Below, piece after piece: positions 1,888 through 11,482 of a stretch of DNA of 11,482 nucleotides. The notes beneath the pieces were generated by a model. That model had not been told where the DNA came from, did not search any database, and saw only the letters and a program-made list of their open reading frames with translations. The DNA is from Candidatus Poribacteria bacterium. GTDB taxonomy: Bacteria > Poribacteria > DTPJ01 > WJIO01. The position numbers and the translations under genes are program-made. The stretch is from assembly GCA_014730235.1 (NCBI GenBank), contig WJIO01000435.1, positions 1-11,482 on the forward strand, in the 5' to 3' direction. Numbering within the stretch: the stretch's first letter is position 1; every line of letters starts with the position of its first letter.

Positions 1888-1916
1888 TTGACATAATCGT
1901 CTATGAATGCTATAAA
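1888..1916 (+). promoter_or_regulatory. Promoter of the variable lipoprotein gene (TATA box, or sigma-70-like)
   Basis: TATAAAAG at 1911-1918 can serve as an archaeal TATA box with a start near 1937. The same stretch reads as TTGACA (1888-1893), 17 bp, TATAAA (1911-1916), a near-perfect bacterial promoter. The gene begins at 1994 with a weak AAGGATA site before it. Confidence 0.5.
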
Positions 1917-1993
1917 AGTGTTAATAAAAGTTTAATTCCAATGATTATGGGAAAATTAACCAAACAAAATATATTAATGCAAAGGATAAGTCT

Positions 1994-3184
1994 ATGAAAT
2001 TTTGTTATGCTAAAAGGTTCACAGCTATAATTATTGCTATACCTGTCATGATCATATTTCTCAATGGCTGCAGTGAAGAAGATCCTGGTACTGTCGGTAC
2101 CCCTGATCTCATAGTCAGAAGCATTGTCACAGAAGGAGAAGCTAACATTGGTCAAACTACACGTTATATAGTAATCGTTGAGAACATTGACGCCGGTACG
2201 GCAAAGAACTTCATTGTCAAATTATATTCAGGAATTGGAGCTGAGGACTTATCTAACAATATTGACCAGTATATTGTGCCGGAACTCAGACCGGGAGAAA
2301 TCCATACCCGTACCCGTTCCTTAAGCTTTGTTCCCACGAGTTATTCCACCGGCTATATAATCGCAGTGGTAGACCCTGACGACAGGATCCCCGAAGCACG
2401 AGAGGATAACAACATGGATTCAATTCGTATCCAGTTCTATTATGATGAACGCGAGGGAATGGCGTTTATACCTGCCGGTGAATTTGAGATGGGCGATCAC
2501 CATGGAGATGGAGGTAGTGATGAAAGACCGGTTCATACAGTATATGTTGACGGTTTTTACATGGATAAGTATGAAGTAACTAACGCTCAATACGCCCGGT
2601 TTCTCAATGATTATGGTAAGAATACCGACGACTCCGGAAAGACATTACTGTATATTGATGACTGCAGAATAAACAAATCTGGTGGGATTTACGTGCCTGA
2701 TTCTGGCTACGAAGATCATCCTGTTGTGGAAGTAACCTGGTACGGCGCTATGGCTTATGCTCGTTTCTATAATAAGCGCTTGCCTACAGAAGCTGAGTGG
2801 GAATATGCAGCACGTGGCGGTCTAGAGGGTAAGAAATATCCCTGGGGTAATGAAATAAGTCATCAGGACGCCAATTATGATGGCACCGGTGGCAGGGATG
2901 TATGGAATGGAACTGCACCTGTTGGGAGTTTTCCGCCTAATGGTTATGGTTTGTATGATATGGCCGGAAACGTATGGGAATGGTGTGCCGATTGGTATGA
3001 TAGCGGATATTATAGGATTTCTCCTGAACGAAATCCGACTGGACCTAATTCTGGATCATATCGCGTGTTGCGCGGCGGTGGTTGGGACAGCTCTCCCAGC
3101 TCCCTCCGCGTGGCGTTCCGCAATAGCTACAATCCGGCGAGCACGAGCCGCCGCAGCGGTTTTCGGTGTGTTTCTCAGGACTGA
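1994..3184 (+). CDS. DGR target lipoprotein: CARDB + FGE-sulfatase (C-type lectin fold) domain with variable C-terminus
   Basis: The 396-residue protein has an N-terminal signal segment (KR then a hydrophobic run, residues 7-23) and a lipobox LNGC with C26, so it should be a lipid-anchored surface protein. Residues about 35-145 resemble a CARDB/Ig-like domain (TPDLIVRS, VENIDAGTA, AVVDPDDRIPE-EDNN). Residues about 153-393 are a formylglycine-generating-enzyme/SUMF1 domain (IPAGEFEMG, YEVTNAQYARFL, RLPTEAEWEYAARGG, MAGNVWEWCADWYD, final GFRC). The catalytic cysteine pair of true FGE is not seen in the segment after RGGGW, so a binding role rather than catalysis is inferred. Residues 357-395 are the variable repeat of a diversity-generating retroelement: relative to the template, 15 of the 18 A-containing codons between W364 and G389 encode a different residue. 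This is the usual place for DGR variation in C-type lectin folds. The likely role is a surface ligand-binding receptor with a hypervariable face. Confidence 0.93.
   Translation: MKFCYAKRFTAIIIAIPVMIIFLNGCSEEDPGTVGTPDLIVRSIVTEGEANIGQTTRYIVIVENIDAGTAKNFIVKLYSGIGAEDLSNNIDQYIVPELRPGEIHTRTRSLSFVPTSYSTGYIIAVVDPDDRIPEAREDNNMDSIRIQFYYDEREGMAFIPAGEFEMGDHHGDGGSDERPVHTVYVDGFYMDKYEVTNAQYARFLNDYGKNTDDSGKTLLYIDDCRINKSGGIYVPDSGYEDHPVVEVTWYGAMAYARFYNKRLPTEAEWEYAARGGLEGKKYPWGNEISHQDANYDGTGGRDVWNGTAPVGSFPPNGYGLYDMAGNVWEWCADWYDSGYYRISPERNPTGPNSGSYRVLRGGGWDSSPSSLRVAFRNSYNPASTSRRSGFRCVSQD
3061..3177 (+). repeat. DGR variable repeat (VR)
   Basis: This 117-bp end of the lipoprotein gene aligns without gaps to 3373-3489. 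There are 24 differences, of which 20 sit where the template has A (changed to G 10 times, T 5, C 5). The remaining four are T to G, G to C and two C to T; the T to G and both C to T changes are silent. The 3' 20 bp (from 3158) are identical to the template, as expected of the initiation-of-mutagenic-homing end, and identity stops after CTCA. Confidence 0.96.
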
Positions 3185-3215
3185 TGTTACCCCTTTTTCT
3201 TTTATCCCTTTACCC

Positions 3216-3244
3216 CTTCGCGGCGAAGCCGCGCGATTTTTTTT
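3216..3244 (+). terminator. Hairpin plus T-run after the variable gene (terminator and/or DGR cruciform)
   Basis: CGCGGC (3219-3224) pairs with GCCGCG (3228-3233) around a GAA loop, followed closely by eight Ts (3237-3244), like an intrinsic terminator. A competing hairpin CTTCG-CGG-CGAAG (3216-3228) overlaps it. In studied DGRs a short GC-rich hairpin/cruciform just downstream of VR helps target recognition; this one begins about 40 bp after VR. Confidence 0.6.
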
Positions 3245-3326
3245 GGCAGAAAACGGAGCTTAATTTGGCTGATGATATGAAGGCTGTAACAAAAATGTAT
3301 GATGTGCTTAATTTGAAGAAATTTCA

Positions 3327-3353
3327 TTTATAAAGGCGTGATGTAACATCACG
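3327..3353 (+). promoter_or_regulatory. TATA box and palindrome before the template RNA
   Basis: TTTATAAA (3327-3334) would place an archaeal start site near 3357, just before the template repeat. Directly after it CGTGATG (3337-3343) pairs perfectly with CATCACG (3347-3353) around TAA, between TATA box and predicted start. This could be an operator or, if transcription starts earlier, the 5' hairpin of the RNA. Confidence 0.45.
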
Positions 3354-3372
3354 GGGAACGTTATCGTCATGC

Positions 3373-3489
3373 TCGCGTTTTGCGCGGCGGTGGTTGGAAC
3401 AACAATGCAAACAACCTCCGCGTGGCGAACCGCAACAACAACAACCCGACGAACACGAACAACAACAACGGTTTTCGGTGTGTTTCTCA
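3373..3489 (+). repeat. DGR template repeat (TR)
   Basis: This 117-bp repeat lies 312 bp downstream of VR and contains 34 adenines, concentrated in AAC codons; read in the VR frame it gives 15 Asn codons in a 24-codon block. AAC is the codon that adenine-specific mutagenesis diversifies most widely. Of the 34 adenines, 20 are changed in VR and 14 are not. It is not a gene: the apparent Asn-rich reading frame over it lacks the rest of the domain. Confidence 0.95.
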
Positions 3490-3605
3490 ATACTTCTCAT
3501 GTTCGACGCCAGAGTTTGTAAGCCAGAATGTCTTACAGAGAGCGCGTCGAGAAGTCCAGATGACGTTCCTGTGTTGGACAACAAGTCCAGCCAAAGATAA
3601 ATAAC

Positions 3606-3646
3606 GTCCTGAACCGGCTGGTAGGCGACGAACGCTGGTTCGGGAC
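3606..3646. terminator. Strong hairpin between the template RNA and the convergent operon
   Basis: A 13-bp stem (3606-3618 with 3634-3646, two G-U pairs) encloses a 15-nt loop. It is placed where the plus-strand template RNA and the minus-strand primase operon (ending at 3662) converge, so it could end one or both transcripts. Only modest T-richness follows on either strand. Confidence 0.45.
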
Positions 3647-3661
3647 ACTCTTTAAAACAAA

Positions 3662-4579
3662 TTATGGAGATTTACGTTTCGTAAAGTGCCACCATACCAC
3701 ATCCCATTCCTCGTCTTTGGGAGGGTTTTTGATAGCTATCTGACCCTTCTGCAGCTTCACCAGGTTTGTCTTCAGCCTGGGTAGTCGGTCTTTACTGTAA
3801 GTCCGGATCCTCTTTATCAAAGCTCTGGCCGTATCCGACAGGGATACTTGAGACAGGAGTTTCTCCTTCCTGATATTGTACCTGTCCCAGAATACATTCC
3901 TCTGGGCATTTGACATGGCCAGATATACCTGCTGGTATTGAACCGGATCTTTCTCATTTTGAGCGGAATAACAGCCTTTGCCCAGGTTTCTCAGTTGAGC
4001 CAGGGATTTACACCTTCCAGGCGTGGTTATGAGCCTTCGGACCAGTTCCGGCTGTCTAAATATCCATGGGAGCTGGTATTCTGCGCCATACATACTGCTT
4101 ATCCTATGAAAACCATAAGTCGCCGGGATGGGATCCTGCCTGTGGGAATGATGGGTATAGTCTCCTTCGCATACAGCATATTTCTCCATCTCAGAGGCCA
4201 TGGTCTCCAGCCATGACAGGGTGGACTCAGCGCCTTCTTTCCTGAGCCTGGTGTCTACTTCATGTATGGCCTCAGGATAGGTGAAGTCGGCTTTGAGCAT
4301 CAGGCTTTTATATTGGGCTGCCTGATCATATGTGAGATTTTTATGCCGAAGGAGGATATTGTCCAGCCTTAACCTTTCGGGTATGCCATCCGGGGACAGG
4401 TTCTCATGTCTCTGCAGAATGACGGAACCTGAGACCTGGTAATCTGCCGACTCGAAATACAGCCTCTGTCCCTGGGAAAGCCCATTTCCTTTGGTTATCA
4501 CCGCATCAACTATATCCTCATATTCCTCTGTTACATGGAAGATATTCCCCAGATAGGTAAGTCCTTTATTGTTATTCAT
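3662..4579 (-). CDS. Unknown protein in the primase operon
   Basis: I do not recognise a family in these 305 residues. Visible features: an Asn-rich start (MNNNKGLTYLGN), a Gln/Tyr/Leu-rich helical middle, a THHSHRQD segment near residue 140 that could bind metal, and a basic C-terminal third (KRIRTYSKDRLPRLKTNLVKLQKGQ) suited to nucleic-acid contact, ending in a Trp-rich segment (VVWWHF). No signal peptide or membrane helix is seen. It begins 1 nt after the primase stop codon without its own clear ribosome site, implying translational coupling and a role with the primase in replication. It occupies the position where a DGR reverse transcriptase would be expected next to the template repeat, but I find no Y/F-x-DD motif or other RT signature, and it runs in the opposite direction. 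Confidence 0.8.
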   Translation of the reverse strand: MNNNKGLTYLGNIFHVTEEYEDIVDAVITKGNGLSQGQRLYFESADYQVSGSVILQRHENLSPDGIPERLRLDNILLRHKNLTYDQAAQYKSLMLKADFTYPEAIHEVDTRLRKEGAESTLSWLETMASEMEKYAVCEGDYTHHSHRQDPIPATYGFHRISSMYGAEYQLPWIFRQPELVRRLITTPGRCKSLAQLRNLGKGCYSAQNEKDPVQYQQVYLAMSNAQRNVFWDRYNIRKEKLLSQVSLSDTARALIKRIRTYSKDRLPRLKTNLVKLQKGQIAIKNPPKDEEWDVVWWHFTKRKSP

Positions 4580-4580
4580 T

Positions 4581-5603
4581 TTAATCGCTGGAGCATTTGC
4601 TCATGATATTTCTCACTGTATTTTGTATATAGCCATATCTCCTGTCTCGCTGATACTTGCCGAAGGGATTGAACATCAGCACCCGGGCTAACTCACCGGC
4701 ATCCATACCGGCCTGGGCCAGTTCGTATCCCAGACTCCAGTCGTGCATTGATGTGTCATTATGCTGATTGGGCGTAAGCCACAGATTTTGAATGATGGGA
4801 TCAAGCTTCAGCAACCTCAGAAATTTGACGGGAAGGTTCTGGCTGGGTTTCACGGGGCAATATCCGCTTTCGGGATAAACCGGCTGAGATAGTATAGCGT
4901 CCCGTACCTTGTCGTCGGTTGATACATCCATCTTAACGAACCTGGACAGCCTGTTTTTCTTACCTTTCACCGACATAGTGCCTATCACCTTCTTCAGCCT
5001 TGATAAGTCAAAACATCCATCTATCCGTAGACCATATTTATCCGGCCTGTGGGCTTTGATGATATTATCCTGCCATATTTTACACTTTTGCTTTATCTGG
5101 TCTCTCTTATATCCAGTTAATTTTACCGGTGCTTTGAAGGGTATCCAGAGATATGCGCCATTCCCGGAGTCATCCACCCATCCACCTAATTGCTTCTGTA
5201 GATTTAATCCAAACTTTATGGCCCTTTCATGCTGCCTGTCTGTTGATGACATCCCCTTTGGCCGCGCCGGGTCAATATCAAGGCTCATGGCTGTTATATA
5301 CTGGACATCTGAATCCTTTGCCCTCTGCCTGTATCGGGTGTCCAGGCAGTTCTCACAGACCTTTGGCAGCCACTTGGGTCTCGGGTTTCTTCCTGCGTAG
5401 ATATTGTATCTGTCGTTGTATGTAATGCAGGCCTTTACAAAGGCGTCCTCATTGTCAAAGAAGCCGGTGGCAATGACACCTCTTTCTCCCTTTGGGTCAA
5501 TGACAGCCAGCTCCGTAATTCCATAACCGGAATGGTTCAGTCTTCTGTAGAAATCCCTTATACTGCCTGTGTTAATTTTATTAGCTTTTTTGTTTATCTT
5601 CAT
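4581..5603 (-). CDS. Archaeo-eukaryotic-type primase (AEP/PrimPol-like)
   Basis: Probably makes primers for, or replicates, the mobile element. The 340 residues show the AEP core: metal-binding DxD (MSLDID, D109 and D111), then DDSGNGAYLWIPF at 144-156 matching the family's SGNGxH motif but with Tyr151 where His is usual, then the third motif around D195 (RIDGCFDLSRLKKVIGTMSVKGKK), close to the family's 'GTxNxK' signature. A CENC pair (C83, C86) before motif I may be half of a zinc site. Residues about 287-335 (WSLGYELAQAGMDAGELARVL) resemble the helical PriCT domain. The start is set at the ATG at 5603 because AGGTGG precedes it by 4 nt, whereas the upstream GTG at 5699 is part of another gene's ribosome site. 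It is coupled to the 28-aa ORF upstream and to the 305-aa gene downstream. Confidence 0.85.
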   Translation of the reverse strand: MKINKKANKINTGSIRDFYRRLNHSGYGITELAVIDPKGERGVIATGFFDNEDAFVKACITYNDRYNIYAGRNPRPKWLPKVCENCLDTRYRQRAKDSDVQYITAMSLDIDPARPKGMSSTDRQHERAIKFGLNLQKQLGGWVDDSGNGAYLWIPFKAPVKLTGYKRDQIKQKCKIWQDNIIKAHRPDKYGLRIDGCFDLSRLKKVIGTMSVKGKKNRLSRFVKMDVSTDDKVRDAILSQPVYPESGYCPVKPSQNLPVKFLRLLKLDPIIQNLWLTPNQHNDTSMHDWSLGYELAQAGMDAGELARVLMFNPFGKYQRDRRYGYIQNTVRNIMSKCSSD

Positions 5604-5689
5604 CACTTCCACCTGGAGAAGAATCCATTGCTCTGATTCTTTATTATATGGTCCAGCTTCTGGTTCATGTCTTCCAGCGTATATGCCAT
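5603..5689 (-). CDS. 28-residue ORF immediately upstream of the primase
   Basis: Reads MAYTLEDMNQKLDHIIKN then QSNGFFSRWK. It has a strong Shine-Dalgarno (GAGGTGAT, about 5 nt before the ATG) overlapping the stop of the winged-helix gene, and its TGA overlaps the primase ATG (TGATG). This arrangement fits translational coupling. The peptide is an amphipathic helix with a basic, aromatic tail; function is unknown. It may be a leader peptide that sets primase translation. Confidence 0.5.
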   Translation of the reverse strand: MAYTLEDMNQKLDHIIKNQSNGFFSRWK

Positions 5690-5695
5690 TATGTA

Positions 5696-5959
5696 TCACC
5701 TCTTGAGTGCAGGATATACCTGCAGAAACAATTCTGCCAACTGCTTCCCTGTTTCTGTCAGGGTAATATACTTGATCTTGCCCTTCCCCTCCCGCTCTAT
5801 TATCTTCATGTCCTCCAGGTCAGACATGAGGTTCCGAAGATGTCGGATGGTCATGCCGGTCCTGCGGTGCAATTTGCCGCAGTATCTCTGTTCCGGTGGG
5901 GTGCTATGCAATATCATCACCAGCTCTGTCCACTTTGGCAGATAGATGGGTTTAGCCAT
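5696..5959 (-). CDS. Winged-helix DNA-binding protein
   Basis: The 87 residues form a compact winged helix: helix 1 (WTELVMILHSTPPEQRY), the helix-turn-helix CGKLHRRTGMTIRHLRNLMSDLEDMKII, and a wing EREGKGKIKYITLTETGKQLAEL, a pattern shared with MarR/ArsR-like and archaeal element-encoded regulators. No extra ligand-binding domain is present. It lies 2 nt from the 108-aa gene upstream and its stop overlaps the ribosome site of the 28-aa ORF, so it is within the primase operon. It may control copy number or act as a replication-initiation accessory by binding DNA; targets cannot be seen. Confidence 0.8.
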   Translation of the reverse strand: MAKPIYLPKWTELVMILHSTPPEQRYCGKLHRRTGMTIRHLRNLMSDLEDMKIIEREGKGKIKYITLTETGKQLAELFLQVYPALKR

Positions 5960-5961
5960 TT

Positions 5962-6288
5962 TTAAGATATTTCCCTCACCTGGTATGATGTGTCCATCCC
6001 TTCACCGGTTCTCAGGATAGATACGGATATTGCGCTTATTCCATGCTTCGCTGCATTCTGGATAATTGGTCTTAATGCCCGGATTAATCTCCTGCTGGTT
6101 ATGCCCAAGGTTTTGTCCACTGGCTTTGAATCTTCCTCCAATACATCAAACCTCAAGCCCGGTCTGTCAAACCGGTGTTCCTGACGCCAGTTGGTCAGTT
6201 TCAGTTTTTTCTCCCTATCCGTATCAAGCTTCACAAAGCCTGACCCCAACTTCTCCCAGTCAATACCTGGGGTATCTTCATCTGTCAT
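5962..6288 (-). CDS. Unknown 108-residue protein of the primase operon
   Basis: No family is recognised. The N-terminal half is charged (residues 1-60, DTDREKKLKLTNWRQEHRF). The C-terminal half starts with a helix TSRRLIRALRPIIQNAAKHG, followed by beta-like ISAISVSILRTGEGMDTSYQVREIS, so a small alpha/beta domain is likely. The start is well supported by a full GGAGGTG ribosome site (minus strand, 6294-6300) 5 nt upstream. That site lies inside the end of the upstream 45-aa ORF, whose TGA overlaps this ATG. Position suggests a role in replication or its control. Confidence 0.75.
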   Translation of the reverse strand: MTDEDTPGIDWEKLGSGFVKLDTDREKKLKLTNWRQEHRFDRPGLRFDVLEEDSKPVDKTLGITSRRLIRALRPIIQNAAKHGISAISVSILRTGEGMDTSYQVREIS

Positions 6289-6422
6289 ATCAACACCTCC
6301 TGTTTACTATAATTTTCTGTATGATGGTTATTGCAGGTTACCCTTTTGTCTATGACGCCTTTCCGCATAACAGAGGACCATTCCGGAAGCTCATCCACAG
6401 TATCCCTAACCAAGGTGATCAC
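6285..6422 (-). CDS. Possible 45-residue ORF overlapping both neighbours
   Basis: A GTG at 6422 opens a frame reading MITLVRDTVDELPEWSSV and continuing to a TGA that overlaps the next gene's ATG (ATGA). It also overlaps the end of the ribbon-helix-helix gene by 17 nt. The overlap at both ends is typical of coupled genes, and the gap would otherwise be an unusual 117-nt hole in a tight operon. There is no good ribosome site at the GTG; an internal ATG at 6368 is an alternative start. Function unknown. Confidence 0.35.
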   Translation of the reverse strand: MITLVRDTVDELPEWSSVMRKGVIDKRVTCNNHHTENYSKQEVLI

Positions 6423-6561
6423 CCAGCCACATAGTCATAGCCTCCTCCAGGGATTCCCGGATAGCTCCTCTTCTCATACCTTTCCGCTTCCCTATCTCAA
6501 GTACGAACCTGTCCCATAGTCCAGAATCCACCAGGGTTGTGGGATAACGCTTAGATGCCAT
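6406..6561 (-). CDS. Small ribbon-helix-helix-like DNA-binding protein, leaderless
   Basis: This 51-residue protein begins MASKRYPTTLVDSGLWDRF. The layout fits a ribbon-helix-helix: a short strand (RYPTTLV), helix A (SGLWDRFVLEIGKRKG), a turn, and helix B (RRGAIRESLEEAMTMWLG). Such proteins dimerise and bind operators with the N-terminal strands, and are common first genes in archaeal plasmid and virus operons. The start is supported by a TATA box about 30 bp upstream with no ribosome site between, so the mRNA should be leaderless or nearly so. It probably autoregulates the operon through the inverted repeat at 6591-6619. Confidence 0.75.
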   Translation of the reverse strand: MASKRYPTTLVDSGLWDRFVLEIGKRKGMRRGAIRESLEEAMTMWLGDHLG

Positions 6562-6586
6562 AGAATAGAGCGTTCACTCCGTTTCC

Positions 6587-6594
6587 TATATAAA
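6587..6594 (-). promoter_or_regulatory. TATA box of the primase operon
   Basis: TTTATATA on the minus strand, centred about 29 bp from the ATG at 6561, puts transcription start at about 6564. It overlaps the left arm of the inverted repeat at 6591-6619, so a bound regulator would block TBP. Confidence 0.65.
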
Positions 6595-6619
6595 TATTGC
6601 GGAAGTGTAGTAATATTTA
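6591..6619. promoter_or_regulatory. Inverted-repeat operator in the divergent promoter region
   Basis: TAAATATT (6591-6598) and AATATTTA (6612-6619) are perfect inverted arms 13 bp apart, with 21 bp between arm centres (two helical turns). The left arm covers the operon TATA box; the right arm lies 27 bp before the regulator's TATA box. Candidate binders are the Lrp-like protein or the ribbon-helix-helix protein. Confidence 0.5.
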
Positions 6620-6646
6620 TGAAGACAGAGAAGAAAAAACGATAGG

Positions 6647-6654
6647 TTTATATA
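6647..6654 (+). promoter_or_regulatory. TATA box of the Lrp-like regulator
   Basis: TTTATATA on the plus strand predicts a start near 6677, followed by the ribosome site GGAGGTGA at 6682-6689. Confidence 0.6.
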
Positions 6655-6700
6655 GTATTTAGCATATTTACTCTATAAAGCGGAGGTGAGTAAAATAGAG

Positions 6701-7210
6701 GTGAGAAAAACAGATGATAAGTTCCGTGTAAAGGCTGACCTGGCAATGTTTCAGGCTATACAGCAGGATGGCAGACTATCGGAGCAAAGTATTGCTCAGA
6801 TAACTGACATTCCGCCTACCACAGTGCATTATGCCATGCAGAGAATCCGGCAGAGAGATTTCTTCCGGATCAAGGCAGTGCCTAAACTTGAGAAGTTTCG
6901 GGAGATCCCCATGGCTGTTATAGGCTTCTCCCACGTTAATCCTATGAGGATACATTATCTTAGGAATAAATATGCCGGGATTCCTGAGGTTATCCAGCTG
7001 CTTCACAGTGAGAAGGATATTCTACTATATGTTATGGATGCAGAACCCCACAAGCTTTCAGAGCGTTTGTTTGGTATCATGGAGGAGTTAGGTGAGAAGC
7101 CATGTCTGTATATGAGATCGCCTAACATCGCAAAGAGCGATATGATCATCCCGGACAGAATTCTAAATGCAGTCTATGGTCATTTACCTGGCAGAGGTGG
7201 GAAAATATGA
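6701..7210 (+). CDS. Lrp/AsnC-like transcriptional regulator
   Basis: An N-terminal winged helix (LAMFQAIQQDGRLSEQSIAQITDIPPTTVHYAMQRIRQRDFF) matches the Lrp/AsnC DNA-binding domain. The C-terminal part (EIPMAVIGFSHVNP ... IPEVIQLLHSEKDILLYVMDAEPHKLSERLFGIMEEL) has the beta-alpha-beta pattern of a RAM-like sensor domain, though it diverges from standard Lrp. It is transcribed away from the primase operon and likely regulates that divergent region. The start is uncertain: GTG at 6686 overlaps the only good ribosome site (GGAGGTGA, 6682-6689), so the in-frame GTG at 6701 is preferred; starting at 6686 would add five residues. It faces the integrase gene, whose stop is 23 nt away. Confidence 0.8.
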   Translation: MRKTDDKFRVKADLAMFQAIQQDGRLSEQSIAQITDIPPTTVHYAMQRIRQRDFFRIKAVPKLEKFREIPMAVIGFSHVNPMRIHYLRNKYAGIPEVIQLLHSEKDILLYVMDAEPHKLSERLFGIMEELGEKPCLYMRSPNIAKSDMIIPDRILNAVYGHLPGRGGKI

Positions 7211-7233
7211 CTTTCCCTAACTGTCAGCAGTAA

Positions 7234-8484
7234 TCATGCTTTACCAGTGACCTTCAGGAACTTATCTTCCAGACCCATCTGTGCCATCTTTCTCAGGATA
7301 ATCTGAAGCACCTCCGGGTCTTTTACCAGTTGGGTCATTATCCCATCCACCTGGTTTCGCCGTTCATCCAGATCCAGGGCTGTATTCACATCCAGGACAC
7401 TCCCGCATTTGTGGCAAAACTTGGCGTCTCTGGAGTTTATCACTGAACAGCGGATACATTGTCTGGGCTTCAGCGGTGATTCTTTAAACTTGTCCGTCTT
7501 AATGCCATGCATGGCCAGGATAGCGTCGTTCACATCGCTGGAGATGAGGTGAGAATACTCGGAAAGCATCTTGCTGTCCGGTACCCAGCCGAAGTATACC
7601 TTGGCCTGGGCTTCGTTGATCTGCTTGTTGATGAGTAGGTGGGTAACCCGGGTATGTCTAAACAGGTGATGATAGACGCGTCTCTTGATCCCTGCCCTGG
7701 CTACCAGCCTAAGCAGCAGTTCCCGGAATGCCCCATAAGTCATTTTATCTTCTTTAACTCGATGACCAATTCTGATCCATAGAGGTGATTCCGGTTTGTC
7801 TCTCAACGGATGAGTGTTAAGCCATTGAGTGATATGCGGATCCGAGATAACTATCCTGGGTGTCCTGTGACCGGTTTTACCCTCCAGATCCACAATATAT
7901 CCATACTTGTCCCTGGTGACTTCCTTTATTCTAAGACTTCCAATTTCACCGATCCTGGCTCCCAGCTCATACAGCATAGAGATAAAGGCTTTATCCCTGG
8001 AGTGTTCGGCTACATCAATGAGTTTCTTTACTTCCTCTTCAGTGAGAATGTCCGAGGCCTTTATCCTGGGCTGTTCCTTCTTCTTCAGGTTGCATCTCAG
8101 CCAGGATACTACTGGCGGATACTCATTCACCATCCTGTATTCATCACCGAATTTCAGCCATTTGTAGAATTTCTTGATGATCACCTTGTAGCTGTGTTTG
8201 GTCCAGGGAGAGCAGTCCTCCCGACTGTCGATCTTTATCACTATATCCTTGATGTCCTCCTTGGTGGCTGCATCAAAGTCACTCCTGAGATACTTTTCCG
8301 CCAGGATTATCAATGTGCCTATGAGCTTAAGTCGTCTTGGCTTGCTCAGGCCTTCCATGAAGCAGGCACGATCAAACTGCTCTATCAACTCTCTGTTTTT
8401 GTCAGAAATATCCGCTTTTTCCAGCTTTTTCTTTGCCATATCCAGCTTGTGTTTATAGTTGTATATATCATTTTTGGGCGTCAT
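7234..8484 (-). CDS. Tyrosine recombinase (integrase) with C-terminal zinc ribbon
   Basis: Cuts and rejoins DNA at attachment sites to integrate or excise an element. Of 416 residues, about 20-130 form the SAM-like core-binding domain and 145-325 the catalytic domain. Catalytic residues visible: R177 (GARIGE), K203 (GKTGHR), H273 and R276 (HLFRHTR), W300 replacing the second His (YFGW), and the nucleophile Y310 (SEYSHL). A zinc ribbon follows (C343-x2-C346 ... C357-x2-C360) and a helical tail; this C-terminal extension is common in integrases of methanogens and haloarchaea and is absent from bacterial XerC/D. The ATG at 8484 lies at the predicted transcription start (TATA centred 26 bp upstream), so the mRNA appears leaderless. 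TTTGGGCG boxes surround the promoter. Confidence 0.95.
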   Translation of the reverse strand: MTPKNDIYNYKHKLDMAKKKLEKADISDKNRELIEQFDRACFMEGLSKPRRLKLIGTLIILAEKYLRSDFDAATKEDIKDIVIKIDSREDCSPWTKHSYKVIIKKFYKWLKFGDEYRMVNEYPPVVSWLRCNLKKKEQPRIKASDILTEEEVKKLIDVAEHSRDKAFISMLYELGARIGEIGSLRIKEVTRDKYGYIVDLEGKTGHRTPRIVISDPHITQWLNTHPLRDKPESPLWIRIGHRVKEDKMTYGAFRELLLRLVARAGIKRRVYHHLFRHTRVTHLLINKQINEAQAKVYFGWVPDSKMLSEYSHLISSDVNDAILAMHGIKTDKFKESPLKPRQCIRCSVINSRDAKFCHKCGSVLDVNTALDLDERRNQVDGIMTQLVKDPEVLQIILRKMAQMGLEDKFLKVTGKA

Positions 8485-8597
8485 ATAGCTTATGTATGCC
8501 CACTGGTATATAAACCTTTGGGCGTTTACATAAGGTGTTTAACGCCCTGGCCGGACGTGAGGGTGTTTGTGTAACTTGTGGGCGTTTTCCGCCCAAA
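8473..8597. promoter_or_regulatory. TTTGGGCG box cluster around the integrase promoter
   Basis: Exact TTTGGGCG occurs at 8473-8480 (inside the first codons) and 8517-8524, and inverted as CGCCCAAA at 8590-8597. Further GGGCGTT copies form inverted repeats: 8521-8527 with AACGCCC at 8541-8547, and TGGGCG (8579-8584) with CGCCCA (8590-8595). The copy at 8517 abuts the integrase TATA box (8507-8514, minus strand TTTATATA). These could be operators or recombinase arm sites. Confidence 0.5.
8507..8514 (-). promoter_or_regulatory. TATA box of the integrase gene
   Basis: Minus strand TTTATATA, preceded by AAAGG that could act as a BRE. Its centre is 26 bp from the ATG at 8484, which predicts a leaderless transcript. 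Confidence 0.7.
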
Positions 8598-8624
8598 TGC
8601 CCTTTGTCGTCGGATGATGGCCAT

Positions 8625-9204
8625 TTTACTATATTGGGATGCGGGATGGGTTTATAAAATTACTGTTTTGCCATTCAGTTACTTTGGTGGCCATCTTGCC
8701 CAAATACTTTGATATTATAGCATTAGCGGTGATGGCTCGGACATATATGGCTTCTTTTGATGGGCAAACAGGAAACGTTCCTGGCCTTTAGTACCATCCA
8801 GTACATTCGCTGCCCCGGGTGGGCTTCAGCAATTGCTGCTTCGCTATACCAGAATGGAAAATGGTAATAATGCGGTTTGATGTTCTGCCAGGATTTGCCG
8901 TTCTTCGTTTTTGGTGGAGCTTTGCGTAGAATTCATCAAATGATCCTTTGATATTGGGTATAGTTTTTTTCATAATGCCTAGTGGTATAGCACCTTATGC
9001 ACAGTGATAAAATGGCAATGGTATCGGTACGTTTATACTCAAAGTATTTCAATTCATCTGTATGGCCCAATAAGTTGTAAAGAACAATGCTATATTTTCC
9101 AGGCACATATAGCTTAGACCATACAAACATTCCTGAATAACAGCTTATCCAAAAATTCCCCAATCTTTATTGACCTGGACTTAAATAATGGTCAATCCCA
9201 TAGA
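8625..9204. other. Stretch without a convincing gene, between integrase and sugar dehydratase
   Basis: About 580 bp in which no recognisable gene is seen. Two overlapping minus-strand frames (8936-9163 and 8788-8973) are open for 75 and 61 codons but lack ribosome sites and any family resemblance; past the second one's stop the frame stays open for another 50 codons. They could be remnants of a decayed gene. No tRNA, att-like direct repeat or CRISPR is visible. A TATA-like TTTATAAA is present at 8651-8658. Confidence 0.5.
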
Positions 9205-10350
9205 TCACCAATCCGCTACACTGCCATCGGACTCGTGGTAGAATTCTCCACCCAGTTCCTCTTCATAAATGCCCCGATCCTGTTCTGCTATCTCTTCGTT
9301 GATCTCGAATCCCAGTCCCGGTTTTGTGGGCAGTTCTATATGACCATCATTGACCATCCAATCTTCTTTCAATAAACCAGCACCCAGGCACTTATCAACT
9401 TGCTCCTGAATCAGGAAGTTTGGAACAACAGCGTCAACTTGCATTGATGCTGAGAAAGCAACAGGACCAATGGCGCAGTGTGGAGCCATGTGCATGTAGT
9501 AGACCTCAGCCATGTTTGAGATCTTCTTCAGTTCAGTGATGCCGCCAGTGTGAGATATGTCAGGCTGAAGATAGGCAGCCGCCTGTTTCTCAAATACATC
9601 CCGAAAACCCCATCGGGTAAGAAATCGTTCGCCAGTGGCAATGGGAAAAGTAACGTGGTCAGATACGAGCTTCAGAGCGTCAATATTTTCCTGAGGCACA
9701 GGTTCTTCAACGAACATTGGGCGCATGCCCTTTATCTCATGGCAGACCTCAATGGCCAGAGCAGGAGTCATTTTGCCGTGAAAGTCGAAGGCCAGTTCCA
9801 CATCAGGGCCAACCCATTCCCTCATCAGGTATGCCCGTTCCACAAAGGCGTCAATAAAGGCTGGTGGCTCATGGGCCCGCCACTTTCCGCCGGGACCAGA
9901 TTTAAATGCCTTGTATCCACCTTTTTTCTGGAGCATATCAAGACGCTGTCTAGCCTGTTCTTTTCCCTTGTCTGTGGTGCTCCCAATTCCCCAATGAGCA
10001 TAAACCCGAATCCGGTCACGAACAGCATCTCCCAGCAGCTTATAGGTGGGAACTTCGTAATATTTTCCTGCAATATCCCATAAAGCCTGGTCAATTCCCG
10101 ACAGCGCGCTCATCAATATATTACCGCCACGAAAGAATGCTGAACGGTAGATGTGCTGCCAGTGATGTTCGATCCGCAGTGGATCTTTGCCTATGAGGTA
10201 ATCTCCTATCTCATCTACAGCAGTCATGGTGCTTCTTGGCTTACCCTCAAGTGTGGTCTCACCCCAGCCCACAATCCCGGTGTCAGTGGTAATCTTAACA
10301 AGACGCACACGGGGAAGGGGAAAGAACTGCTCAATCTTGATAACTTTCAT
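9205..10350 (-). CDS. Enolase-superfamily sugar-acid dehydratase, D-galactonate dehydratase-like
   Basis: Members remove water from sugar acids via a Mg-stabilised enolate; D-galactonate dehydratase yields 2-keto-3-deoxygalactonate. The 381 residues show an N-terminal capping domain and a (beta/alpha)7beta barrel. Metal ligands D189 (AFDFHG), E215 (FVEEPV) and E241 (ATGERF) are present, together with H191 and H291 (APHCAIGP), matching the two catalytic His of the GalD family, and D264 (LQPDISHTGG). This set is intact, so it should be active; substrate specificity within the family cannot be assigned. The start is the ATG at 10350 (MKVIKIEQF), preceded by GGAAAGG; an upstream TTG would add six residues. 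No sugar-pathway partner is in the window, so it may be chromosomal flank or cargo beside the integrase. Confidence 0.9.
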   Translation of the reverse strand: MKVIKIEQFFPLPRVRLVKITTDTGIVGWGETTLEGKPRSTMTAVDEIGDYLIGKDPLRIEHHWQHIYRSAFFRGGNILMSALSGIDQALWDIAGKYYEVPTYKLLGDAVRDRIRVYAHWGIGSTTDKGKEQARQRLDMLQKKGGYKAFKSGPGGKWRAHEPPAFIDAFVERAYLMREWVGPDVELAFDFHGKMTPALAIEVCHEIKGMRPMFVEEPVPQENIDALKLVSDHVTFPIATGERFLTRWGFRDVFEKQAAAYLQPDISHTGGITELKKISNMAEVYYMHMAPHCAIGPVAFSASMQVDAVVPNFLIQEQVDKCLGAGLLKEDWMVNDGHIELPTKPGLGFEINEEIAEQDRGIYEEELGGEFYHESDGSVADW

Positions 10351-10407
10351 CTGGTTTTTCCTTTCCAAATGTGAGGTCTGATTCTATACATCCTAAGGGC
10401 ATATTGC

Positions 10408-10417
10408 AAACGCCCAA
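10408..10417 (-). promoter_or_regulatory. TTGGGCGTTT motif upstream of the dehydratase gene
   Basis: The minus strand carries TTGGGCGTTT, identical over 10 bp to 8518-8527 at the integrase promoter, and lies 58 bp upstream of the dehydratase start. The two copies are in opposite orientation. The surrounding 10369-10635 stretch holds no gene. Confidence 0.25.
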
Positions 10418-10635
10418 GGTAATGTGAAGGCACTAATAAAATTCAAAAGCTTTCGCTATTGGTATTTTACAAAAATTCTGCTGCCAGGTCAACAGTATCC
10501 TTTTCCCAACAATTTCTCACTTTTGAGGATTACAGCCTTGGGGAATGAATTTGATGTATAAAGCTTATGATAGATATATTATCACATGAAGATTTGATAG
10601 ACCACATTGAGTTTCCCTGAAATCCCGGAGGAGTT

Positions 10636-11482
10636 TCAGATCCTGAATAATCTTACGTGCTCAAAATCAGAGGGTTGGAAACGCTTAAGTTTTGCATTTA
10701 CCCTATCCAATGTTTTATCGTTTGTTGCTATAGAAACTACCTCAAAGCCAGCATTTAGGCATTTCCTGATATTTTTTATTGCATCCGACTTCCCTGTCTC
10801 AATCTCAACAGCAATCTTCTTCTTTTTCCCAATAATAGCCAAATCTGTAGTCTCCCCATTTCCGATTGGAAATTCCTCTTTTGGATGATAGCCAGCATCA
10901 ATCAATTTCTTCTTAACCTGCGCAACCCAATACAGATGCTCAACTCCTCCATGCCGCCATGATTTTGAAATACCGTAATTTTGCATTCCTTTTTCAGTTT
11001 GTTCCAGAAGCTTGATTCTTGCTTTTCCAGTTTTGATACTAACCTCTTTTATTAGCCCGAGTTCTATTAATTTTTTCTTGCATTTGTTTCCATTTCTGCC
11101 GCTCAAGCAAAGTTTCTGATACCTTTTTGCTATACCTAATAACGGCTCTTTCGCAATGCTTGATAACAATTCTTTCATATATTTATCTTGCTCTGGAATA
11201 ACCGGAATAACCTTATCCTGATTTATCGCAGGCGGAATAACCTCTGATTTTACGGAATAACCTTGCATTCTTGCTTTAAGTGCTTTATCACCGACTTTTC
11301 CAGCTTTAATTGGAACATACGGAAACCTTATCATAAATGGAGCGTGCCACCTGTTTTGCAGTTTTGCTATGGCTGTTCCTACTGGAAGTTTACCAAGAAA
11401 CTGGCAATCATGGTGGTCCAGAAACATTGCTTTTCCTGCTGCATTTACATCATCATTATGCTTTAAGCTAAAGGTTATTTGA
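10636..11482 (-). CDS. HerA-like ATPase C-terminus fused to a PD-(D/E)XK-like nuclease domain (5' end off the right edge)
   Basis: The frame stays open to the right edge, so the ATG at 11427 is internal and the true start lies outside. The first visible part (QITFSLKHNDDVNAAGKAM, then LGKLPVGTAIAKLQNRWHAPFMIRFP) matches the conserved C-terminal segment of archaeal HerA/VirD4-type ATPases, where the 'LPVGxAIxKLQ' strand and 'PFxIxFP' follow the RecA-like core. A linker with VIP repeats leads to a winged-helix-like region (PLLGIAKRYQKLCLSG through LIELGLIKEV). The last about 110 residues (GVEHLYWVAQVKKKLIDAGYH, then TTDLAII-KKKKIAVEIETGKSD) carry a D...ExE arrangement typical of restriction-endonuclease-like folds. 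Such proteins are often encoded by archaeal integrated plasmids; a role in DNA translocation or end processing is inferred. Confidence 0.75.
   Translation of the reverse strand, partial: QITFSLKHNDDVNAAGKAMFLDHHDCQFLGKLPVGTAIAKLQNRWHAPFMIRFPYVPIKAGKVGDKALKARMQGYSVKSEVIPPAINQDKVIPVIPEQDKYMKELLSSIAKEPLLGIAKRYQKLCLSGRNGNKCKKKLIELGLIKEVSIKTGKARIKLLEQTEKGMQNYGISKSWRHGGVEHLYWVAQVKKKLIDAGYHPKEEFPIGNGETTDLAIIGKKKKIAVEIETGKSDAIKNIRKCLNAGFEVVSIATNDKTLDRVNAKLKRFQPSDFEHVRLFRI
11195..11262. repeat. Four GGAATAACC repeats in the linker of the ATPase fusion
   Basis: Exact 9-mers lie at 11195-11203, 11204-11212, 11234-11242 and 11254-11262. On the coding strand they read GGTTATTCC; three give VIP and the last is read in another frame as GYS, so the repetition is at DNA level. 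Confidence 0.6.

Follow-up and report, generated by a model that had tools for sequence, protein, structure and literature searches.

The 11,482-nucleotide stretch of DNA analyzed here (hereafter the window) contains two closely similar repeats, raising the question of whether they belong to a diversity-generating retroelement (DGR) and, if so, whether that element can still act. A repeat search of the window recovered the variable repeat (VR, 3061–3177, + strand) and the template repeat (TR, 3373–3489, + strand) as a first-pass annotation had drawn them, 117 bp each, gapless, and at a spacing of 312 bp. The adenine bias claimed for the pair was likewise borne out by direct count. Specifically, 20 of the 24 mismatches among the 117 positions fall at TR adenines, which occupy 34 of those positions (hypergeometric P = 4.8e-10), and the changes from TR to VR at these sites lead to G (10), T (5), and C (5). 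The remaining four differences are T>G, G>C, and C>T twice. Counted in the reverse direction, VR holds only 14 adenines versus 34 in TR. When TR is read in the VR frame, its adenines lie mostly in Asn codons, and its variable sites consist almost wholly of such codons.

C-type-lectin-fold proteins, often of the formylglycine-generating enzyme (FGE) type, are the usual targets of DGRs. In the window, VR occupies the 3′ end of a gene (1994–3184, + strand) for a 396-aa putative lipoprotein whose signal, judged by eye, ends in LNGC. Pfam matches in this protein comprise a CARDB domain (1e-11) and an FGE-sulfatase domain (PF03781, E = 9.4e-78) that reaches residue 393 of 396. The earlier description of VR as the C-terminus of such a C-type-lectin-type domain, ending in GFRC, is thus upheld. 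PDB matches of the target include formylglycine-generating enzymes as well as the DGR variable protein of Treponema denticola (2y3c, E 2e-19).

The host, by contrast with what the first-pass annotation proposed, is not an archaeon. The DNA comes from the bacterium Candidatus Poribacteria, and the enolase-family (MR_MLE) gene neighboring the cassette has 73–85% orthologues in most Poribacteria. The tetranucleotide profile of positions 3660–11482 is also typical of the host (r 0.85–0.88 vs. a median of 0.86 for the genome itself), whereas that of positions 1900–3660, covering the target gene and the repeats, is atypical (r 0.48). An archaeal assignment is nonetheless understandable, because the best plasmid matches of a neighboring integrase are haloarchaeal and TTTATATA-like boxes can be seen by eye upstream of two genes of the element to which it belongs. 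From Pfam and sequence matches, this neighbor is a probable integrative element lying outside the DGR (3662–8484, − strand). It consists of a zinc-ribbon tyrosine integrase (7234–8484, − strand), two proteins without a family match (3662–4579 and 4581–5699, − strand), and an HTH gene (6686–7210, + strand). Elsewhere in the same genome, contig C13 (L184 3833–5113) encodes an integrase 67% identical to that of the window. A search of viral contigs with the window integrase found no relative, and a phage search with the protein at 4581–5699 gave no match.

DGRs usually encode their reverse transcriptase (RT) close by, and many of them, though not all, also carry the accessory gene avd. With respect to these components, no DGR RT was found in the window. 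The post-VR sequence runs into 18 avd codons and then almost at once into TR. This avd remnant (3256–3309, + strand), detected by tblastn and by DNA alignment with a second cassette on contig C66 of the same genome, is 89% identical to residues 5–22 of the C66 Avd, and the frame is lost beyond it. The segment at 3312–3341 (+ strand) may represent the last nine RT codons (FEEISFIKA-stop); this tentative assignment was made by eye from its likeness to intact RT C-termini (FSQTVFRRS-stop), the segment being too short for statistics. Thus, the adenine-specific signature behind the initial DGR reading stands, but the implied intact element does not, as deletion has taken the RT and all but a remnant of avd, and the assembled genome contains no DGR RT. 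That genome, in which the window is contig C384, is a metagenome-type draft of 5.53 Mb in 451 contigs, with 91.6% completeness and 4.8% contamination. A six-frame search of it with RVT_1 returned two RTs, both of group II type, one of which is a group II intron RT-maturase. The two were considered as a source of activity in trans and rejected, as both are of the group II intron type and one is fused to a PrimPol. The latter (G000:C357, L002 427–3570) is a 1047-aa protein that combines a hydrophobic N-terminus, an RT of group II type, and a PrimPol of the CRISPR-associated type. Searching the assembly with a profile (A1) built from three intact Poribacteria DGR RTs gave, beyond the group II RTs, only its first 80 positions on C66 and a weak match at chance level. 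Because the genome is 91.6% complete and split into 451 contigs, an intact RT may sit in an assembly gap.

A search of the genome for further VR copies, as proposed with the first-pass annotation, did yield one more cassette, that on C66, which is also without a functional RT. There, the final part of an FGE gene, which includes a VR of its own, is followed by a complete Avd (NF033474, 112 bits), 76 RT codons, the middle of a TR, and the same post-TR sequence as in the window. The RT is cut after these 76 codons and fused into mid-TR, and the contig breaks inside the target gene. Since different remains of avd and RT persist in the window and on C66, the two loci carry different deletions; the junctions differ, and neither is marked by a long repeat.

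Intact cassettes from other Poribacteria have the order FGE/VR-avd-RT-TR and RTs with the motifs IGNLTSQ and YMDD or YVDD. The avd-RT-TR portion is carried by G021:C291, G044:C99, G059:C137, and G031:C101, preceded by an FGE target wherever the contig is long enough. These elements share with the window a homologous avd, a post-TR RNA of the same family, the order up to TR, and an FGE target with its VR; they differ in possessing an RT of 352 aa and a complete avd with 57–60% identity to the C66 Avd, both of which the window lacks. Non-adenine mismatches are more frequent in the window (4/82) than in intact cis pairs (0/76 in G059 and 1/77 in G021; Fisher P = 0.05). This excess alone does not date the loss of the RT, because such changes are no rarity in surveys of DGRs and are common in published DGR pairs (PMC6642488). 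In G031:C101 (L101 5975–6079), the TR beside the intact RT is poor in adenines and VR-like over its 5′ half but normal and rich in adenines over its 3′ half, and is perhaps a VR/TR chimera. A more divergent Poribacteria DGR was also encountered in G081:C31 (L134 4849–6978), in which the gene order is different and the RT lies on the strand opposite to avd and an Asn-rich, TR-like repeat.

Downstream of TR, the TR RNA continues into a 3′ domain (3490–3648, + strand) whose structure, defined by covariation over seven cassettes, is a multi-stem fold with a terminator-like end hairpin. The consensus from the seven-cassette alignment comprises 51 pairs, with 95.2% of cells paired. Changes on both sides were seen for 21 pairs, compared with 11.5 ± 2.2 in shuffles, and none of 500 shuffles scored as high. 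Slid controls of the alignment gave 2–3, a comparison that flatters the structure because the structure was derived from that alignment. On its own, the window RNA has a single-sequence z of −3.3, and the covariance model built for this domain (R1) scores 131.5 bits on the window, whose sequence is part of its training set. Moreover, R1 matches RT-bearing cassettes outside the phylum, in G129 (35 bits) and on the Chloroflexi contig JAJRVV010000224.1 (26 bits), each time immediately downstream of a TR. Rfam contains no counterpart of this RNA, and R1 had no match at the divergent DGR of G081:C31. Between the two cassettes of our genome, 11 pairs are altered, of which 9 can still form in both, one of them thanks to a double change. 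The fold has therefore been largely kept since the window and C66 copies split, which fits use as a template until fairly recently.

Parallels with the DGR of Bordetella phage BPP-1 (mtd-avd-TR-brt) include adenine-specific change from TR to VR, a target with a C-type-lectin fold, a spacer RNA 3′ of TR, and possibly the hairpin downstream of VR. The BPP-1 spacer recruits the RT-Avd complex (PMC12875486), and by analogy the post-TR RNA likely has the same role. Unlike the window, BPP-1 has an RT, located after TR, and R1 matched neither the BPP-1 region, its spacer included, nor four other phage DGR regions. As for the hairpin, BPP-1 requires one downstream of VR (PMC3240598). In the window, VR ends in an IMH-like segment of 21 nt (3157–3177, + strand; pattern search of the genome) that is identical to the end of TR, and 42 nt beyond VR lies a hairpin of sequence CGCGGC-GAA-GCCGCG with a run of T residues after it (3219–3244, + strand; sequence and folding); C66 has the same hairpin. 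This is a candidate for the target hairpin, a terminator, or both, although it lies farther from VR than in BPP-1 and has a 3-nt loop where that of BPP-1 is GRNA.

Which template last wrote VR can be addressed at a few positions, given here as 0-based TR offsets from base 3374. Offsets 62 and 71 are T in both VR and the C66 TR but C in the window TR. Offset 33 is C in VR and in the C66 VR but G in the window TR and in the f3 TRs (G021, G044, G059, and G030); having lost its 5′ half, the C66 TR is uninformative here. In the own-genome pattern search, the IMH is by contrast specific to each locus, shared by its VR and TR but different in the window and on C66. These three sites suggest that the window VR was last rewritten in trans from a C66-type template, with the 3′ IMH left in place. 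Writing in trans has been argued likewise from non-adenine sites in Thiohalocapsa (PMC10907252).

Loss of the RT appears not to be confined to this genome. Among 84 Poribacteria genomes, R1 matches above 100 bits, taken as full-length copies of the TR RNA, occur in 14 places, of which 4 are beside an intact RT and 10 are not; five of the 14, besides our own two, are sequences used to train the model. The count takes in only matches above 100 bits because low scorers consist mostly of the 3′ hairpin alone, for which reason we also rejected the low-scoring matches in many Poribacteria as orphan TR RNAs. Besides the window and C66, the 10 copies without an intact RT comprise a cassette in G030:C31 with RT codons 281–352 left, two in which avd runs into the RNA and both RT and TR are gone (G059:C63 and G030:C92), one with avd and RT fragments (G018:C282), and four consisting of the RNA only (G044:C13, a second copy on G044:C99, G032:C162, and G083:C156). 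RT-less copies in several other genomes have yet other junctions, one of them on a 77-kb contig. Because the junctions differ among these copies, the sequences suggest several independent RT losses in Poribacteria. The TR of the RT-less G030:C31 cassette (L100 6288–6395) differs from that of G044 at 12 positions, 9 of them adenines (P = 0.001), and looks as if it had itself once been the target of mutagenic homing.

Taken together, we consider it probable that the window locus is a degraded, formerly active DGR of Poribacteria that was disabled by loss of its RT, unless an unassembled RT acts in trans. What was observed, and what this reading builds on, is the repeat pair, the adenine bias, the target domain, the absence of an RT both in cis and from the assembled genome, the avd remnant, the intact relatives, and the RNA structure. 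In the past, a DGR RT with Avd would have copied the TR-containing RNA, misincorporating at adenines, and the mutated cDNA would have replaced VR, the 3′-terminal segment of the FGE-domain lipoprotein gene. Later, a deletion starting at roughly avd codon 22 and stopping close to the RT end would have eliminated the enzyme while sparing VR, TR, and the structured RNA domain 3′ of TR. Because that deletion took the enzyme, the locus could no longer diversify itself, and the present VR variant would be frozen, barring trans action by an RT absent from the assembly; we infer that no activity remains at the locus in living cells. We file it as a DGR remnant, with product and template present and the RT missing.

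The simplest rival, in which the 3′ end of the gene was merely duplicated in tandem and then drifted, with no retroelement involved, would account for TR being open in the FGE frame, as expected of a duplicated gene end. It is scarcely credible given the extent of the adenine bias, the Asn codons that make up almost all variable sites of TR, the avd remnant lying between the repeats, and the shared order of RT-bearing relatives. The deletion itself may be an assembly error. More broadly, some cells could carry an intact cassette, with the contigs representing deletion variants or a mis-joined consensus, and the fragmentation and contamination of this metagenome-type draft are compatible with that, as is the coexistence of intact and disrupted DGR variants documented by long reads in Thiohalocapsa (PMC10907252). 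However, the two loci of this genome have different junctions with no long repeat at either, and RT-less copies with other junctions recur in several other genomes, including that on the 77-kb contig, so we judge such a mixture or artifact to be very unlikely.

Continued activity served in trans deserves somewhat more weight, though it too seems unlikely. Here, the window would supply VR, TR, and a foldable TR RNA, while RT and Avd would come from an unassembled region, a co-resident strain, or a mobile element. The VR sites matching a C66-type template suggest trans activity in the past, the TR RNA fold is preserved, C66 retains a complete avd, and trans diversification has been inferred for RT-less loci of Thiohalocapsa (PMC10907252). 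Against this, the assembled genome contains neither a DGR RT nor a copy of the TR RNA beyond the known two, and the RT core has been lost from both known cassettes.

For the preferred reading, a DGR remnant, there are precedents, as RT-less TR-VR remnants (PMC7517822) and degraded cassettes (PMC10907252) are already known. At all3226 of Nostoc sp. PCC 7120, TR-VR homology is found at a variable protein gene with no RT gene or pseudogene nearby, much as in the window, but Nostoc has two DGR RTs elsewhere (PMC7517822), whereas none was found in our assembly. Thiohalocapsa PB-PSB1 resembles our genome in having several cassettes, some without RT or TR; it still has intact RTs, and its losses are tied to transposons and MITE-like arrays (PMC10907252), whereas those described here look like simple deletions. 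To these precedents, our analysis adds the phylum-wide frequency of RT loss, together with the covarying post-TR RNA. One might speculate, with little confidence, that RT loss in Poribacteria is recurrent and perhaps selected, such that a surface protein is diversified, sometimes in trans across cassettes, and then locked by deletion of the RT, with the TR RNA domain outliving the enzyme and possibly keeping a role of its own. If the losses are indeed selected, DGRs would serve as transient tuning devices. In practical terms, an RT-less TR/VR pair can be recognized and compared with intact copies, and R1, which finds intact DGRs in other phyla, offers a route to orphan templates missed by RT-based surveys. 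The terminal hairpin of the TR RNA (GAGGTGTGATGGT...GCCGAATGCCATCACACCTCTTTT) also recurs intergenically across Poribacteria (L223–L226, L229, L231–L236, and others) as a dispersed terminator-like repeat.
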